A stretch of DNA of 64,000 bases from Solidesulfovibrio alcoholivorans DSM 5433 (GTDB lineage Bacteria > Desulfobacterota > Desulfovibrionia > Desulfovibrionales > Desulfovibrionaceae), in NCBI RefSeq assembly GCF_000702665.1, contig NZ_JNJA01000008.1, forward strand, positions 124,001-188,000, given 5' to 3'. Below the pieces are notes generated by a model that did no database searches, had not been told where the DNA came from, and saw only the letters and a list, made by a program, of their open reading frames with translations. How positions within the stretch are numbered: the first letter of the stretch is position 1; every line of letters starts with the position of its first letter. Positions 46,714 to 55,150 of this stretch are shown here, piece after piece. A program made the position numbers and the translations under genes.

Positions 46714-47318
46714 ATGACGTGCTCCGCAAGAAGGTCGGGAGAAGGCCAATGCCCGCCGTCGTGGACGCGAAGCGTCGCTCCAGGCAAGAGCGCGAGCGCC
46801 CTGTCCAGGGCCGCGCGGCGCACGATGCGGTCGCGCGTTCCCCAGACCACCGTGACATTGGCCGCCGGCACAGGGGTTTCGGCGACGGCGGAGGCGCGCA
46901 GGTAGTCGAGCCCGGCGGCAAGGGGCGCGGCCCAGGCCGGATTCCAGGTAGGCGCGCCGGGTTCGCCAGGCGCGCCGCAGTTTTTCCAGAACGCGCGCAC
47001 CGTGGCCTCGGGGGCTTCGTCCATGGCGGCGCGCATGGATTGGATGATCCGGTCGGGAAAGCTGTCGCCGAAGCGGGCGAAGGGCGCAAAGAGCACCACC
47101 TTGCCGGCGTGCGGGAAAAGCGTGGCGGCGTGGCGAAGCAGCATGTGCGCGCCCGTGGACCAGCCGGCGAGCACCCGCGCCGGGCTTGCCGCCACGCGCG
47201 CGATGACGGCCGCCTCGTCGCCGTCCACAAACGGGGCGACATAATCCAGGCGCGCCGAAAGCCCGGGAAAGAGCGTTTCGGGACCGGCCCAGCCGGAAAC
47301 GAACACCGCGTCGGTCAT
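46710..47318 (-). CDS. Alpha/beta hydrolase, probable pimeloyl-ACP methyl ester esterase
   Basis: 202 residues, short for a BioH (about 256) and nearer the BioG size. The nucleophile elbow is GWSTG (Ser54), with Asp163 (WGTRDRIV) and His190 (HDGGHWPSP) completing the triad. Between bioF and bioC it almost certainly removes the methyl group from pimeloyl-ACP; whether it is BioG, BioH or another replacement needs alignment. Its start overlaps the bioF stop (ATGA). Confidence 0.8.
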   Translation of the reverse strand: MTDAVFVSGWAGPETLFPGLSARLDYVAPFVDGDEAAVIARVAASPARVLAGWSTGAHMLLRHAATLFPHAGKVVLFAPFARFGDSFPDRIIQSMRAAMDEAPEATVRAFWKNCGAPGEPGAPTWNPAWAAPLAAGLDYLRASAVAETPVPAANVTVVWGTRDRIVRRAALDRALALLPGATLRVHDGGHWPSPDLLAEHVI

Positions 47319-48493
47319 GGGAAAAAGGAAACCCGGAGCCTGGAAAAGCCGAGGCGGATGCGCTTGATGTCTTCGTTCGTGAGGTCGGCGCGCAGCGACA
47401 GCCGCAGCCGCGCCGTGCCCTCGGGCACGGTCGGCGGCCGCACGGCGGCGACGAGCAGGCCCTCGGCCATGAGCAGCGCCTGGGCATGCAGCGCCACCCG
47501 GTTACGGCCGCAGGCCACGGGTATGATTTGCGTGGTCGAGCCCATGGTGTCGAAGCCGAGGCCGTTTAGGTGGTCCCGGATCTCCTTGGACAGGCGCATG
47601 AGCCGCGCGCCTTCGCTGGGGTTGGCCTTGACGTGGCGCAGCGCGGCCAGCGACGCGCCAAGCACCGCCGGCGGCAGGGCCGTGGAAAAGATGAACGACC
47701 GGCCCCGGTTGCGCAACAGTTCGATGGTCTCCACCCGGCCGGCGATGAAGCCGCCCTGGGACCCCAGGGCCTTGCTGAGCGTGCCCACATGCACGTCCAC
47801 GTCCTCGTAAAGACCGAGCGCGGCGCTAAGGCCCCGTCCCCGGCCGAGGACGCCCGTGGCGTGCGCCTCGTCCACGACCACCAGCGCCCCGTGGGCTTTG
47901 CCAAGCTCGACGATCCGCGCTAAGGGAGCCACGTCGCCGTCCATGCTGAAGACCGTGTCCGTGACGATGATCTTCTTCTCGGCCTGCGCCTCACGCTCGA
48001 GCAGCCGCTCCAGATGCTCCATGTCCAGATGCCGGTAGCGCACGAGCCGGGCTCCGGAGAGCCGGATGCCGTCGATGATGCTGGCATGGTTGAGGCGGTC
48101 GGAAAAGACCATGGTGTGCCGGTCGGCCAGGGAGGAAAAAACGGCGAGGTTGGCGGCGTAGCCGCTGCCCGTGACGAGCGCGGCCTCCTGGTATTTGAAC
48201 GACGCCAACTCCGCCTCGAGCGTTTCGGCCAGGGCGAAGTTGCCGGTGATCAGCCGCGAGGAGCTCGAGGAGCAGCCGTAGCGCTCCAGGGCCTTGGCCG
48301 CGCCGAGGACGAGGTCCGTGTGCTCGGCCAGCCCCAGGTAGTTGTTGGAGGCGAGGTTCAGGACCCGCGTTCCCGAATAGAGCAATTCCCGGGCCGCGCC
48401 CTCGTCAATGGGCGGTATGGTCCGGAAGCTGTCCGAGTTGCGAAGCCTGGCCGCCTCGGGCACGATGTATCTGCCGAAAAAGGATGTACTCAT
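47315..48493 (-). CDS. bioF: 8-amino-7-oxononanoate synthase
   Basis: 392 residues, PLP-dependent alpha-oxoamine synthase joining pimeloyl-ACP and alanine. NLASNNYLGLAEH, GSGYAANLAV, DRLNHASIIDGIRLS, VVVDEAHATGVLG and the PLP-lysine motif GTLSKALGSQGGF are visible. CoA/ACP-type RPPTVPEGTARLRLSLRA closes the fold. Start ATG at 48493 gives family length; 48520 is possible. It is head-to-head with bioA, with start codons overlapping or nearly so. Confidence 0.95.
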   Translation of the reverse strand: MSTSFFGRYIVPEAARLRNSDSFRTIPPIDEGAARELLYSGTRVLNLASNNYLGLAEHTDLVLGAAKALERYGCSSSSSRLITGNFALAETLEAELASFKYQEAALVTGSGYAANLAVFSSLADRHTMVFSDRLNHASIIDGIRLSGARLVRYRHLDMEHLERLLEREAQAEKKIIVTDTVFSMDGDVAPLARIVELGKAHGALVVVDEAHATGVLGRGRGLSAALGLYEDVDVHVGTLSKALGSQGGFIAGRVETIELLRNRGRSFIFSTALPPAVLGASLAALRHVKANPSEGARLMRLSKEIRDHLNGLGFDTMGSTTQIIPVACGRNRVALHAQALLMAEGLLVAAVRPPTVPEGTARLRLSLRADLTNEDIKRIRLGFSRLRVSFFP

Positions 48494-48518
48494 GGCTAAC
48501 GGTTCCGGGAGAGAATCC

Positions 48519-49835
48519 ATGCGGATCTGGCATCCCTGCACCCAGATGAAGGATCACGAGTCGTATCCTCCCGTCTTTATGGACCGCGGTCAAGGGATTT
48601 ACCTCTTCGACCGCGAGGGCAACGCCTACATCGACGCCATATCCTCCTGGTGGGTCAACCTTTTCGGCCACGCCAATCCCCGAATCGTCGCGGCCGTGAC
48701 CGAACAGCTTTCGCGGCTGGAACACGTGATATTCGCCGGGGTGACCCACGCCCCGGCCGAGGAATTGGCCGATCGTCTCTTGAAGATCGCCATGCCGGGG
48801 CTCTCTCGCATCTTTCTTGCGGACAACGGTTCCTGTGCCGTGGAGGCCGCGCTCAAGATGAGCCACGCCTCTTTCCGCAACCTCGGCCATCCCGAAAAAT
48901 GTCGCTTCCTGTTCCTTTCCAACGGCTACCACGGCGAAACGGCCGGCGCGCTCGGCGTGTGCGGCGACAGGCTCTACGCCGCGCCCTTCAAACCGCTTTT
49001 CATCGAGCAGATCGAGGTGCCCGGCCCGGACTGCCTGTTTTGTCCCCACGGCAAAGCACGCGAAACCTGCGACACCGAGTGCTTCGCCCCCATGGATGCG
49101 GCCATCGCGGCGCACAAGGACGCACTCGCCGGGGTCATCGTCGAGCCGCTCGTGCAGTGCGCCGGCAACATGCGCATGTACCCGCCGGCGTATCTGGCCA
49201 AACTGCGCAGGGCGACGACCGCCGCGGGCGTCCATTTCATCGCCGACGAGATCGCCGTGGGATTCGGGCGCACGGGCACGATGTTCGCCTGCGAACAGGC
49301 CGGGGCCACGCCGGATTTCATGTGCCTGTCGAAGGGCATCACCGGCGGCACGCTGCCCCTTTCCTGCGTGCTGACGACCGACGCGGTGTTTGACGCATTT
49401 TACCACGACTACGTGGATGACAAGGCATTCCTCCATTCCCACAGCTATACCGGCAATCCGCTCGCCTGCGCCGCGGCCTGCGCCACGCTGCGGATCTTCG
49501 AGGACGACGACGTCATAAACGCCAACAAGGCCAAGATCGCGCATTTGCAGCGGGCCGTGCGCGAGCGCTTCGCCGGCTACCGGCACGTCATGGATATCCG
49601 CAGCACGGGCTGGATCACGGCGGTGGAACTCTATGCCGATCCCGGGCGCAAGGAGCCCTTCGACTGGCGCAAGCGCATTGGGTTCCAGATATACCAGGAA
49701 GCGATCAAGCGCGGGGCGTGGCTGCGCAACCTCGGCGACATCGTCTATTTCATGCCGCCGTACGTGATTACGGAAGCGGAAATCGACAAACTGGCCGACA
49801 TCGCCCTCGATGCGGTCAAGGCGGTGCTCAAATGA
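48519..49835 (+). CDS. bioA: Adenosylmethionine-8-amino-7-oxononanoate aminotransferase
   Basis: 438 residues, class III PLP aminotransferase converting KAPA to DAPA. IWHPCTQMKDHE and SSWWVNLFGHANPRI are the BioA N-terminal marks; FIADEIAVGFGRTG and the PLP-lysine LSKGITGGTLPLS follow. ATG 48519 has GGGAG seven bases before it; ATG 48492, with AAGGA upstream, is equally possible and would overlap the bioF start codon in the palindrome CATG. bioD overlaps its stop. Confidence 0.94.
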   Translation: MRIWHPCTQMKDHESYPPVFMDRGQGIYLFDREGNAYIDAISSWWVNLFGHANPRIVAAVTEQLSRLEHVIFAGVTHAPAEELADRLLKIAMPGLSRIFLADNGSCAVEAALKMSHASFRNLGHPEKCRFLFLSNGYHGETAGALGVCGDRLYAAPFKPLFIEQIEVPGPDCLFCPHGKARETCDTECFAPMDAAIAAHKDALAGVIVEPLVQCAGNMRMYPPAYLAKLRRATTAAGVHFIADEIAVGFGRTGTMFACEQAGATPDFMCLSKGITGGTLPLSCVLTTDAVFDAFYHDYVDDKAFLHSHSYTGNPLACAAACATLRIFEDDDVINANKAKIAHLQRAVRERFAGYRHVMDIRSTGWITAVELYADPGRKEPFDWRKRIGFQIYQEAIKRGAWLRNLGDIVYFMPPYVITEAEIDKLADIALDAVKAVLK

Positions 49836-50428
49836 AGCGCTATTTCATTACCGGCACGGGCACGGGCATCGGCAAGTCGCATTTTTCGGCGCTGTTCGCC
49901 CGTCGGCTCAAGGAAGAGGGGCTCTCCGTGCGCTACATCAAGCCCGTGGCCACGGGCTATCCCGAGGACGACGACGCGGCGTTCGTGGCGCGCGAGGCCG
50001 GCCTTGCCCCGGAGGATGCGGTGACGCTGTATACGGCGAGCGAGCCGGCCTCGCCGTGCTTCGTCTTTGATCCGTTTCCTTTCGAGGAGTGCGTCGCGCG
50101 CATGGAGGCGCTTTGCGCGGACCGCGACGCGGTGTTGATCGAAAGCGCCGGGGGCCTCGCCGTGCCCCTTGGCGTGCGGCGCTACAACTACCATTTCGCC
50201 CTGGCGCTTGGCTGCGACGTGATTCTGGTCGTGCCGAACAGGCTCGGCTGCCTTTCCGACGCCATCGTCTACGGCCATTTCGCCCAGCGCCACAGGATGG
50301 TCCTGGACGCCATCGCCCTCAATGACTTCTTCGCCGAAAGCCCGCGCCACGCCGACCGCAACGCGGCGGAACTGGAGCGGCAGTTTCCTGGGAAGACATT
50401 TTATCGTTATTCCAGTTTGGGGGATTAG
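49832..50428 (+). CDS. bioD: Dethiobiotin synthetase
   Basis: 198 residues. The P-loop GTGTGIGKS (8-16) replaces the more common GTDTxVGKT. YIKPVATGYP carries the CO2/ATP lysine; IESAGGLAVPLG is the third family motif. BioD closes the ureido ring of dethiobiotin with CO2 and ATP. It is coupled to bioA (ATGA). bioB is not in the window. The stop overlaps the convergent small gene by four bases. Confidence 0.93.
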   Translation: MKRYFITGTGTGIGKSHFSALFARRLKEEGLSVRYIKPVATGYPEDDDAAFVAREAGLAPEDAVTLYTASEPASPCFVFDPFPFEECVARMEALCADRDAVLIESAGGLAVPLGVRRYNYHFALALGCDVILVVPNRLGCLSDAIVYGHFAQRHRMVLDAIALNDFFAESPRHADRNAAELERQFPGKTFYRYSSLGD

Positions 50429-53208: not shown

Positions 53209-54009
53209 CTAATTTCTCGAGAGCAGTTCCATGGCCGCATCGACGCCGGCGTTTTCGTGGACGATGGCCGTAACCGCCCGCAACAGTTTCGCGGGCTCGG
53301 GGTCCTGGAAGATGTTACGCCCCACGGACAGGCCCGCGCCGCCGGCCAGGACGCTGTTGCTGATCATTTCGAGCAGCCCGCGGCGGGAATCGATCTTCGG
53401 CCCGCCGGCGATGACCACCGGCACGCAGCAGCCGGCCACGACCTTGGCGAAGCTGTCCGGGTCGCCGGTGTAGGGCACCTTGACGATGTCCGCGCCGAGT
53501 TCGTTGCCCACGCGCGCGCAGTGGGCCACGACGTCGGCGTCGAACTCGTTTTTGACCTTGGGACCACGCGCGTACATCATGGCCAGGACCGGCATGCCCC
53601 AGGAAACCGCGGCCTCGGTCACGAGCCCCAGGTCGTCGAGCATCTTGGCCTCGGTCTCGTCGCCGAGGTTGACGTGCACGGACACGGCGTCGGCACCCAG
53701 GCGGACGGCCTCCTCCACCGTGCAGACGAGGGTCTTGGCGTTGGGAAAGGGCGAGAGGCTGGTGCTGGCGGAAAGGTGGATGATAAGCCCCACGTCCCGG
53801 CCGCGGGCGCGGTGGCCGCAGCGCACCACGCCCTTGTGCATGAGCACGGCGTTGGCCCCGCCGGACACGATGCCCGTGACGGTTTCGCGCATGTTCTCGA
53901 TGCCCGCGATGGGGCCGACGGAGACGCCGTGGTCAAGCGGCACGATGATGGTGCGGCCGGTGTCGCGGTTGACGATGCGTTCGAGGCGGATGGATTTGCC
54001 GATGGTCAT
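53209..54009 (-). CDS. 2-amino-3,7-dideoxy-D-threo-hept-6-ulosonate synthase (AroA')
   Basis: 266 residues of the class I aldolase DhnA family. Catalytic residues are Asp26 (PLDHGVS), Tyr146 (MMYARGP) and the Schiff-base Lys177 (IVKVPYTGD). In methanogens and in Desulfovibrio-type bacteria this enzyme makes ADH from aspartate semialdehyde and a 6-deoxy-hexulose phosphate, the first step toward dehydroquinate without DAHP synthase. Simple fructose-bisphosphate or LsrF-type aldolases are the alternative. The Tyr-rich leader upstream (54127-54225) strongly favours the aromatic role. AAGGAG precedes the start. Confidence 0.88.
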
Positions 54010-54066
54010 GGTCGTTCTCCTTGCGGTTTTCGCGAAGGAGCCCGGGTCCCCGGTCGGCTTTGCATG

Positions 54067-54099
54067 AAAAAGGGCCGCCGGGCGATTCGCCCGCGGCCC
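54067..54099 (-). terminator. Attenuator terminator upstream of the ADH synthase gene
   Basis: Read on the minus strand, GGGCCGCGGGCG pairs with CGCCC-G-GCGGCCC around AAT (12 pairs, one bulged G) and is followed at once by TTTTT (54071-54067). It starts 28 bases after the leader-peptide stop and ends 57 bases before the structural gene. A GGCCGCG in its left arm (54092-54098) can instead pair with CGCGGCC at 54133-54139 inside the leader frame, a natural antiterminator. Confidence 0.85.
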
Positions 54100-54126
54100 C
54101 TGTCGGCGGTGTTGTGGTTGCGGCCC

Positions 54127-54225
54127 CTACGCGGCCGCGCCACCCGCCGTGCCGCGAGCGCGAAGGCCGTAATAATAATACGAGCCGGTCGGAAGGATGC
54201 GCGCAGCGGGCATGCGGGCGTTCAT
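54127..54225 (-). CDS. Tyrosine-rich leader peptide of the ADH synthase gene
   Basis: A 32-codon frame, ATG at 54225 to TAG at 54127, with AGGA seven bases before the ATG. The middle reads GSYYYYGLRARG: four Tyr codons in a row (TAT TAT TAT TAC, 54169-54180). The remainder is Ala/Arg/Gly-rich and has no other function to suggest. Followed by competing stem-loops and a U-tailed terminator, this is the layout of a ribosome-stalling attenuator: when charged tRNA-Tyr is scarce, stalling at the Tyr run would free the antiterminator and let the aromatic-pathway gene be read. Confidence 0.85.
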   Translation of the reverse strand: MNARMPAARILPTGSYYYYGLRARGTAGGAAA

Positions 54226-54286
54226 GAAGAAATCCTAGCGCACGGGCCGGCCGGCCGTCAAGGGCCTTGGCGCGGGGCGGCGGCGC

Positions 54287-55150
54287 TCAGCCCAGGACAT
54301 TGAAGACCGCCGCGAAATCCGCTTCGCCAAGGCCCTCTTCCACGAGTTTGCGGTAGAGCGGCTCGAGCACGGGAAGCAGCGGCGAAGGAGCGTGGGCTTC
54401 GGCCGCAGCTCCCACGGCGAAACGCAGGTCCTTGGCCATGTGCTTGGCCGGAAACTGCGGCGGAAATTCGCCCGCGCGCAGCATGGGGTCCTTGAGGCGA
54501 AACAGGTCGTTGGCCATGGGCCCGGCCATGACCACGTCGAGCAGGGCTTCGCGCGACAGCCCCAGTGACTCGCCCAGGCGCACGGTTTCGGCGAGGCTCG
54601 CGACCATGGCCCCGAGCAGCACGTTGACCGTGACCTTCATGGTCGAGCCCATGCCGGCCGCGCCGCAGCGCGCGACCTTCTTGCCCATGGAGAGCAGCAC
54701 CGGCTCCACGGCGTCGATGGCGGCCGCGTCGCCGCCGGCCAGGATGACGAGCGTGCCCTCTTCGGCGGGTTTCTTGGAGCCCGAGACAGGCGCGTCCACG
54801 TACTGCGCACCCGTGGCCAGCACGCCCGCCGCGGCCTCGCGGGCGAACGTCGGGGAAACCGTGCTCATGTTGACCACGGTCTTGCCCGGCCCCAGGCTTT
54901 TTGCCGCGCCTGCGGGGCCGAAAAGCACTTCGCGGCAGGCATCGGGGCCGGTCAGCATGCAAATTATGACCTCGCCGGAAGCGGCGGCTGCGGCCGGCGT
55001 GGCCGCGACCCTGGCCCCGGCCTCGGCCAGGGCCTGCGCCGGTCCCGCAGAGCGGTTCCAGACCGTGACGTCGTGTCCCGCGCGCAGGCAGTTGCGCGCC
55101 ATGGCCGTGCCCATGATGCCGAGGCCCAGGAATCCGATGCGCGTCGCCAT
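54287..55150 (-). CDS. 3-hydroxyisobutyrate dehydrogenase-family reductase
   Basis: 287 residues of the beta-hydroxyacid dehydrogenase family. GFLGLGIMGTAMARN is the nucleotide site, with Asn-Arg in VTVWNR pointing to NADP; DAPVSGSKKPAEEGTLVI is the substrate signature and Lys in GSTMKVTVNVLLG the catalytic base. It may be a glyoxylate/succinic-semialdehyde reductase (GLYR type). It lies 61 bases upstream of the leader peptide on the same strand; the leader's own promoter would fit in that gap or transcription may read through. Confidence 0.88.
   Translation of the reverse strand: MATRIGFLGLGIMGTAMARNCLRAGHDVTVWNRSAGPAQALAEAGARVAATPAAAAASGEVIICMLTGPDACREVLFGPAGAAKSLGPGKTVVNMSTVSPTFAREAAAGVLATGAQYVDAPVSGSKKPAEEGTLVILAGGDAAAIDAVEPVLLSMGKKVARCGAAGMGSTMKVTVNVLLGAMVASLAETVRLGESLGLSREALLDVVMAGPMANDLFRLKDPMLRAGEFPPQFPAKHMAKDLRFAVGAAAEAHAPSPLLPVLEPLYRKLVEEGLGEADFAAVFNVLG

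Follow-up and report, generated by a model that had tools for sequence, protein, structure and literature searches.

A probable tyrosine-sensing transcription attenuator upstream of one of two ADH synthase genes in Solidesulfovibrio alcoholivorans

Introduction

In Solidesulfovibrio alcoholivorans DSM 5433, a gene for 2-amino-3,7-dideoxy-D-threo-hept-6-ulosonate synthase (ADH synthase, ADHS) is preceded by a short reading frame with consecutive Tyr codons and by a terminator-like hairpin, and the question raised by this locus is whether transcription of the gene is controlled by tyrosine through these elements. The locus is found in a stretch of 64,000 nucleotides (the window) of a draft genome with an estimated contamination of 7.78%. 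A first-pass annotation of this DNA had described a complete ribosome-stalling attenuator; the leader, the Tyr run and the terminator of that description have been retained, whereas its antiterminator stem and its ribosome site have not.

The locus is interpreted here, with a probability of about 0.86, as a ribosome-mediated transcription attenuator by which the supply of charged tRNA-Tyr governs one of two ADHS isozymes. This interpretation rests on the anatomy of the locus, its conservation, the pairing across relatives, and the correspondence of codon class with ADHS clade and gene context, all of them analysed in this work; from these we infer every functional step, namely the start site, the stalling, the kinetics and the response to tyrosine.

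Results

Anatomy of the locus

The locus carries clustered regulatory codons in a short leader ORF located between a predicted promoter and the gene, with an intrinsic terminator before ADHS (Table 1). The 32-codon leader, its four Tyr codons and the 57 bases before the gene, as annotated in the first pass, were confirmed in the sequence; these 57 nt, from the end of the U tract (54067) to the ADHS start (54009), contain a GGAG motif. The terminator had been annotated with 12 pairs and five U, and both the hairpin and the U tract were found, although 13 pairs were counted, one of them G-U, with a stability of about -26 kcal/mol. It was not picked up by a simple terminator scan because its stem is bulged. 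The terminator pattern occurs only twice in 5.1 Mb, once before each ADHS passing the family cut-off, and is absent (0 occurrences) from the control. The minimum free energy of the segment 54160-54088 is -48.3 kcal/mol.

Table 1. Predicted regulatory elements and gene at the Tyr-leader ADHS locus (window coordinates).
Feature	Position	Strand	Basis or remark
-35 hexamer TTGACG	54256..54261	-	sole promoter-like site in 53900-54500; mean in shuffles 0.0
-10 hexamer TAGGAT	54232..54237	-	spacer of 18 from the -35; ends 6 nt 5' of the leader AUG
Leader ORF MNARMPAARILPTGSYYYYGLRARGTAGGAAA, ATG, 32 codons, TAG	54127..54225	-	probably leaderless; +1 predicted at or adjoining A54225 from promoter spacing
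Four consecutive Tyr codons TAT TAT TAT TAC (putative regulatory codons)	54169..54180	-	alignment, column identity
Antiterminator 5' strand CGCTCGCGGC	54151..54160	-	identity 1.00 in 13 genus members; pairs with 54097-54088
Intervening hairpin around the leader stop codon, inside the antiterminator rod	54102..54149	-	fold of 54160-54088, single sequence
Antiterminator 3' strand GCCGCGGGCG, also part of the terminator 5' arm	54088..54097	-	pairing comparison
Intrinsic terminator: hairpin 54100-54071 and U5 54071-54067	54067..54100	-	90.7% of cells paired (Tyr clade)
ADH synthase, Tyr-leader isozyme	53209..54009	-	family profile, MJ0400 homology

In the terminator stem of the window (54097-54074) and of its relatives, a one-base mismatch or bulge is often located at the same place, and the antiterminator pairing runs unbroken through it; this irregularity may tilt the kinetics toward the antiterminator. 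An Rfam scan of the window revealed no family at threshold, including Phe_leader (RF01859) and T-box, and T-box gave no match at E<=1 in L001. A group of ORFs resembling, by eye, a biotin-synthesis cluster is located at 47315-50428 of the window, near the Tyr-leader ADHS.

The two entry isozymes of the genome

The window ADHS scored 379.4 bits against TIGR01949 (curated cut-off 299.45) and aligned with MJ0400 from the PDB over residues 3-262 (E 5.7e-96), so that its assignment is firm by family, with its catalytic activity predicted. DAHP synthase was not found in the genome, where the only PF00793 match was a KDO8P synthase and PF01474 gave no match; together with the profile and the MJ0400 homology, this agrees with the enzyme identity originally annotated. 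The gene stands alone, the next ORFs match TetR and MFS families, and no homologue of DHQ synthase II, pheA or tyrA was found within 1.5 kb downstream.

A second ADHS, 68% identical to that of the window, is encoded on another contig of the same genome (L048 10258-11055). It heads an operon encoding ADHS, DHQ synthase II (the only one found in the genome), prephenate dehydratase, EPSP synthase, prephenate dehydrogenase, anthranilate synthase I and a glutamine amidotransferase, and it is preceded by its own leader MQSLANLTSGFYFWFWFSHARGQGGVRSN, with a FYFWFWF run of Phe, Tyr and Trp, and by a separate terminator. Judging from the ADHS identity and the genes of the sister operon, the leader codons match the pathway product. 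The proposal that tyrosine sets the flux into the pathway has to be narrowed accordingly: there is a Tyr leader on ADHS, but since the second ADHS heads the operon with the only DHQ synthase II found and has a Phe/Tyr/Trp leader, the control by tyrosine would extend to one of the two entry isozymes.

The genome also encodes a third ADHS-like aldolase (L049 8598-9458, minus strand), 38% identical and with 203.8 bits against TIGR01949, below the 299.45 cut-off; an aromatic leader was not found upstream of it. A cobalamin riboswitch (Rfam RF00174, 71.6 bits) is present at L048 7228-7416, about 3 kb upstream of the aromatic operon.

Conservation and controls

A comparison set beforehand was whether relatives retain the gene while losing the Tyr run or the terminator, and both elements were kept in 13 of 13 ADHS copies of the genus, that is, the copy of this genome and those of 12 of 13 same-genus relatives (the thirteenth, G002, 69% complete, gave only a distant match). 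The run reads YYYY in eleven copies, YYYGY in one and YYYYY in one. Mean column identity in these 13 members was 0.98 for the Tyr run and 1.00 for the ten bases of the antiterminator 5' strand, and 0.77 for codons 2-15. The Tyr run alone was rejected as evidence because four consecutive TAY codons occur 5 times in the genome and 4 times in the reversed control.

In 147 of 168 ADHS upstream regions from the order, a small ORF with at least four aromatics in eight residues was detected, against 33 of 504 dinucleotide shuffles, and at the stricter level of at least six aromatics in eight the counts were 125 of 168 and 0 of 504. None of the 111 other ORFs of the window, some of them spurious, reached either level. 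These figures bear on a very improbable alternative, in which the terminator belongs to the upstream gene, ADHS has a promoter between 54066 and 54010 and the Tyr-rich ORF is due to chance. A gene on the same strand (54287-55150) does end 61 nt before the leader ATG, as that alternative needs, but the only promoter-like site in 53900-54500 is upstream of the leader, the block of promoter, leader and terminator recurs before ADHS elsewhere, in other genomes and at the paralogue on another contig, and the shuffles fail to produce such an ORF at the stricter level.

Predicted promoter and 5' end of the leader

The promoter analysis was carried out on 141 loci with both a leader and a terminator, among them L143, which is classed below as having no leader. 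In 111 of these loci a TTGAC motif begins 35-38 nt ahead of the leader ATG, and in 13 of 13 genus copies the distance is 35-37 nt, whereas the same spacing relative to the ADHS start was found in 1 of 168. This spacing would place +1 on or adjoining the A of the ATG. Promoter scores of at least 9 of 12 were obtained for 89 of 141 loci and for 10 of 141 shuffled sequences; the -10 boxes are weak matches to the consensus. A Shine-Dalgarno-like motif is present ahead of 15 of 141 leader starts, in comparison with 133 of 141 ADHS starts. In the Tyr clade, 19 of 22 rows show the TTGAC spacing relative to the script-chosen ATG; for the remaining three the distance from the motif to that ATG is 19 nt, and a second ATG, in frame and 18 nt further on, would restore the spacing.

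From this TTGAC-to-ATG distance the leader mRNA is probably leaderless, with its 5' end predicted by promoter spacing. The ribosome site AGGA (54236-54233) that had been assigned to the leader falls inside the predicted -10 hexamer TAGGAT and has been discarded.

Antiterminator and terminator pairing

In the 141 loci, the longest contiguous pairing between the stretch following the aromatic codons and the terminator 5' arm had a median of 11 bp and began at a median of 6 nt past the last aromatic codon, and it was significant (p<=0.05 against dinucleotide shuffles) in 124 of them. The pairing of the window locus itself, in GC-rich sequence, gave p 0.07, and the case for the window therefore rests on the comparison with relatives.

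For this comparison, 22 sequences of the Tyr clade, 20 of them distinct, were aligned. The conserved antiterminator 54160-54151 x 54097-54088 (10 bp) had 88.5% of its cells paired, compared with 35-45.5% when slid. In four sequences of genus g10 one C-G pair has become U-A, possibly through a single event. None of 500 shuffles attained the count of cells changed at both partners (4) or the covariation score, but 347 of 500 attained the number of pairs so changed (1); the outermost pair holds in 5 of 20 sequences. An antiterminator that would exclude the terminator is thus conserved in its pairing, with limited covariation. The terminator had 90.7% of its cells paired, with 16 cells changed on both sides, above all 500 shuffles, and with four pairs changing on both sides, a number reached by 62 of 500.

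Two other pairings have been considered. The antiterminator stem first proposed, 54139-54133 x 54098-54092, can form in this genome, but 78.1% of its cells are paired, which does not exceed the level of shuffled partners; it has no both-side change or covariation in the Tyr clade, and its probability was 0.00 in every growing-transcript fold. It has been replaced by the conserved pairing described above. The classical 1:2 (protector) hairpin is present in the minimum-energy fold of the window and is unsupported by the Tyr-clade comparison, the 1:2 pairing reaching p<=0.1 in 0 of 14 loci of the Tyr class, 18 of 76 of the W class and 3 of 21 of the Phe class.

The antiterminator strand also encodes a peptide, and a segment RARG is conserved after the Tyr run. 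In leaders such as TnaC, the nascent peptide causes the arrest with a free amino acid as ligand, and the RARG segment could be taken as a sign of that mechanism here, with free tyrosine as ligand in place of slow Tyr decoding. However, the conservation of RARG is attributable to the RNA pairing encoded there, the residues before the run vary (identity 0.77), and in paralogues the position of Tyr is taken by Phe or Trp codons, all of which makes peptide arrest highly unlikely and favours the decoding of Tyr codons as the signal.

Folding of the growing transcript

The full-length equilibrium fold favoured the terminator whatever the ribosome position (P 0.95). When pairing across the ribosome was allowed, the antiterminator strand was captured by a stretch upstream of the Tyr run, a pairing unsupported in the Tyr clade (0 of 14 at p<=0.1). 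After these two models had shown no switch, growing transcripts were folded with only the RNA downstream of the ribosome free, assuming ribosome footprint sizes. With the ribosome at Tyr codon 1, 2 or 3, the antiterminator had a probability of 0.92-1.00 until the transcript end reached 54076; with the ribosome at Tyr4 this probability was 0.47-0.79, at the next codon (Gly) about 0.5, and at the codon after that or at the stop codon 0-0.01. For a ribosome placed midway, with RNA free from 54131, the terminator reached only 0.51 at the end, compared with 0.95 for one at the stop codon; at the other ribosome positions the terminator prevailed once it was complete. A fold with the ribosome on Tyr codons 1-3, of the kind suggested with the original annotation, favours the antiterminator in growing transcripts and not in the equilibrium or across-ribosome models. 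Because the terminator wins at full-length equilibrium, the switch would have to be kinetic, and such a switch at Tyr codons 1-3 is supported by the folds, with a simple two-state form as the most likely here.

The following mechanism is proposed. Transcription would start at or adjoining the leader AUG, so that the ribosome would load directly behind the RNA polymerase. When Tyr-tRNA is scarce, the ribosome would stall on Tyr codons 1-3 and leave 54160-54151 free to pair with the terminator 5' arm (54097-54088) before the 3' arm is made, resulting in readthrough into ADHS. When tyrosine is plentiful, the ribosome would advance and cover 54160-54151, the terminator would form and transcription would end. 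The same device would read Phe, Tyr and Trp codons at the ADHS that heads the operon, and Phe codons at further stand-alone ADHS genes of related genera, and entry into the pathway would thereby be divided between isozymes by leader codon identity.

Leader classes among ADHS copies of the order

ADHS was present in 190 of 199 genomes searched in the order. A total of 169 distinct copies were examined, and once the third homologue (L049) was removed, 168 copies from 113 genomes remained. A leader was found in 148 of them (146 at classification, and probably L097 and L143 on a later look). According to our own class rules (TYR, PHE, FY and W), which are applied to a seven-residue core, the 168 copies comprise 90 with Trp-containing leaders (87 operon heads and 3 not), 26 Phe (25 stand-alone), 21 Tyr (all stand-alone), 9 F+Y (5 stand-alone) and 22 with none. 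Since the rules use the core residues, they themselves impose the lack of Trp within a class, but not the clade count given below. A copy was counted as belonging to an operon when a homologue of an operon gene, or a further ADHS, began within 900 nt. Hand assignments were made for L093 (labelled TYR) and for L143 and L017 (set to none), and five copies without a scanned terminator (L106, L110, L112, L113 and L130) were classed from their leaders, a GGCCGC..GCGGCC hairpin being later found in all five. No Trp-only leader was found among the 168 copies.

Leaders with Trp codons account for 87 of the 92 classified at operon heads and for 3 of the 54 at stand-alone genes (Fisher p 1e-29, uncorrected for ancestry), one of these three exceptions being at a contig end; stand-alone copies read mostly Tyr, in one clade, or Phe. 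In a quick ADHS tree with SH-aLRT support and no bootstrap, the 21 TYR copies and one FFYCYSY copy form one clade (SH-aLRT 97), with 13 genus copies and 9 relatives, and 23 Phe and 3 F+Y copies form a second one (SH-aLRT 97). The Phe label requires 7 changes on the tree, and further Phe leaders lie outside the main Phe clade, so Phe specificity probably arose more than once. The combination of a Tyr stand-alone copy and a W operon was found in 20 genomes belonging to three genera.

The clade structure also bears on the possibility that the leader is a general sensor of translation or of the aromatic pool, and that its Tyr-only content arose by drift, without functional meaning, from an ancestor with mixed FYW codons. 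In some leaders of the genus, one or two Phe codons are still present a few residues upstream of the Tyr run. In Corynebacterium glutamicum the AroR leader, with Phe-Tyr-Phe, is described as responding to Phe only (PMC11802643), so a response to Tyr does not necessarily follow from the presence of Tyr codons. Drift is nevertheless judged unlikely, because the seven-residue core lacks Trp codons in all 22 members of this ADHS clade, which spans four genus codes, and each member keeps 3-5 Tyr while the N-terminal codons change; a tyrosine-specific leader is preferred.

Homologues of trpE/G were found in 10 of 22 operons whose run contains Trp codons and in 0 of 17 whose leader lacks them, a count made on 40 operon regions picked by hand, mostly for their leaders and not at random (L331 being without leader), in which two of the 17 (L306 and L334) are too short to tell and the ten positives are all from the order, most of the others being from outside it.

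The 20 copies without a leader consist of 15 stand-alone genes and 5 located second behind another ADHS. Tandem ADHS genes in one operon (L060, L061, L062, L063 and L153) have a leader on the first copy and none on the second. In genus g26, stand-alone ADHS genes lack such a leader (L017, L018, L023, L025, L028, L038 and L080), and they may represent natural cases in which the switch was lost or never gained.

Distribution in the phylum

ADHS matches were obtained in 88 of 297 genomes of the phylum, and outside the order the range is given by leader ORFs alone, from the best 80 of 509 matches in one search and 30 loci in the other. Among the best matches of Desulfobacterales in named genomes, a F/Y-rich leader was found in 9 of 10 loci by the criterion of four aromatics in eight residues, L262 being the locus in which none was found by this criterion. 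A pheA homologue follows ADHS in 9 of the 10 (L235, L239, L240, L241, L247, L253, L254, L260 and L262), no DHQ synthase II being seen between ADHS and the pheA homologue in these loci, and in four of the leaders (L241, L253, L254 and L260) one Trp is located just past the run. In other families of the phylum a leader was found in 18 of 19 loci, and the remaining one has 34 nt of upstream sequence.

A wider interpretation, of moderate probability, is that across Desulfobacterota the archaeal-type aromatic flux is split among paralogous ADHS enzymes, each with a leaderless attenuator of common design whose codons set the response to Tyr, Phe or all three.

Discussion

The locus resembles the E. 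coli pheL/pheA and trpL attenuators in having a leader ORF with regulatory codons, an antiterminator and a terminator, and differs from that type in that the 1:2 hairpin is unsupported in the Tyr clade. The Rfam Phe_leader model (RF01859) gave weak matches in two relatives, L091 (30.6 bits) and L026 (28.9 bits), in relation to a gathering score of 55, and no match at E<=1 in L001 or L048. In E. coli, feedback inhibition of the proteins and the action of repressors split the DAHP synthase isozymes AroF, AroG and AroH among Tyr, Phe and Trp. Entry isozymes appear to be divided likewise here, although the division is proposed at the RNA level, through leader codons, and without a Trp-only leader. 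If this is true, duplicated entry enzymes would have been specialised through codon changes in RNA leaders, as an RNA-level counterpart of the Tyr-, Phe- and Trp-specific DAHP synthase isozymes.

Among the matches listed, the closest known system is aroR-aroF of C. glutamicum, in which a leader peptide with aromatic codons also precedes an aromatic entry enzyme (PMC11802643), so that a leader peptide at the entry step has a precedent. There the enzyme is DAHP synthase and the leader answers Phe and not Tyr, whereas ADHS and Tyr codons are involved here, and no codon-specialised set of paralogues is described in the portions consulted of the two C. glutamicum papers (PMC11802643, PMC4046766). 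Four leaderless transcripts are reported among eight C. glutamicum small mRNAs, the consulted text not stating whether aroR is included (PMC4046766). The leaderless trpL of Sinorhizobium meliloti provides an attenuator RNA that starts at the leader AUG, a start which is predicted here from spacing; it differs in its Trp codons, its trpE(G) operon and its host, an alphaproteobacterium (PMC7298713).

Ribosome-mediated attenuation is therefore known, and what is apparently new is its presence on ADHS instead of DAHP synthase, the Tyr-only content, the probably leaderless mRNA and the codon-specialised set on paralogues. By word search, "leader peptide", "aromatic amino" and "tyrosine" are absent from a 2004 survey of delta-proteobacterial regulation (PMC545781), and "Desulfovibrio", "aromatic" and "tyrosine" from a 2010 attenuator survey (PMC2965389). 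In the openly licensed literature, whose matches do not usably cover the name of the enzyme, no title or abstract among those listed describes such an attenuator, and no scheme for regulation of the DAHP-independent first step was found in the partial texts of the matches listed. The Tyr leader could already be in print in older surveys of proteobacterial attenuation.

The attenuators proposed here tie the stand-alone ADHS copies to aromatic synthesis, and the paralogues appear to have split their labour by leader codon identity. This provides a concrete and testable scheme for possible regulation of the first step in bacteria with the DAHP-independent pathway. Moreover, the Tyr-, Phe- and FYW-reading versions constitute natural replicates for the relation between codon choice or position and attenuator specificity, perhaps on leaderless mRNA.

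In RNA-seq data of D. hydrothermalis, the first four genes of the operon change together, from -2.9 to -3.6 (PMC4162548), which is consistent with control at the leader; the terms "attenuat-" and "leader" are absent from the text of that paper that was searched.

Codon choice in the leaders differs from that in the genes. The runs of Tyr-class leaders contain 61 TAT and 22 TAC, compared with 3 TAT and 39 TAC in the same ADHS genes, and all classed leaders contain 348 TTT and 83 TTC, a preference that is reversed in the genes (163 and 562). Rare-codon choice has been considered an oversimplified explanation of leader codon bias (PMC1183508). The preference for TAT and TTT may keep the run unstructured or slow its decoding.
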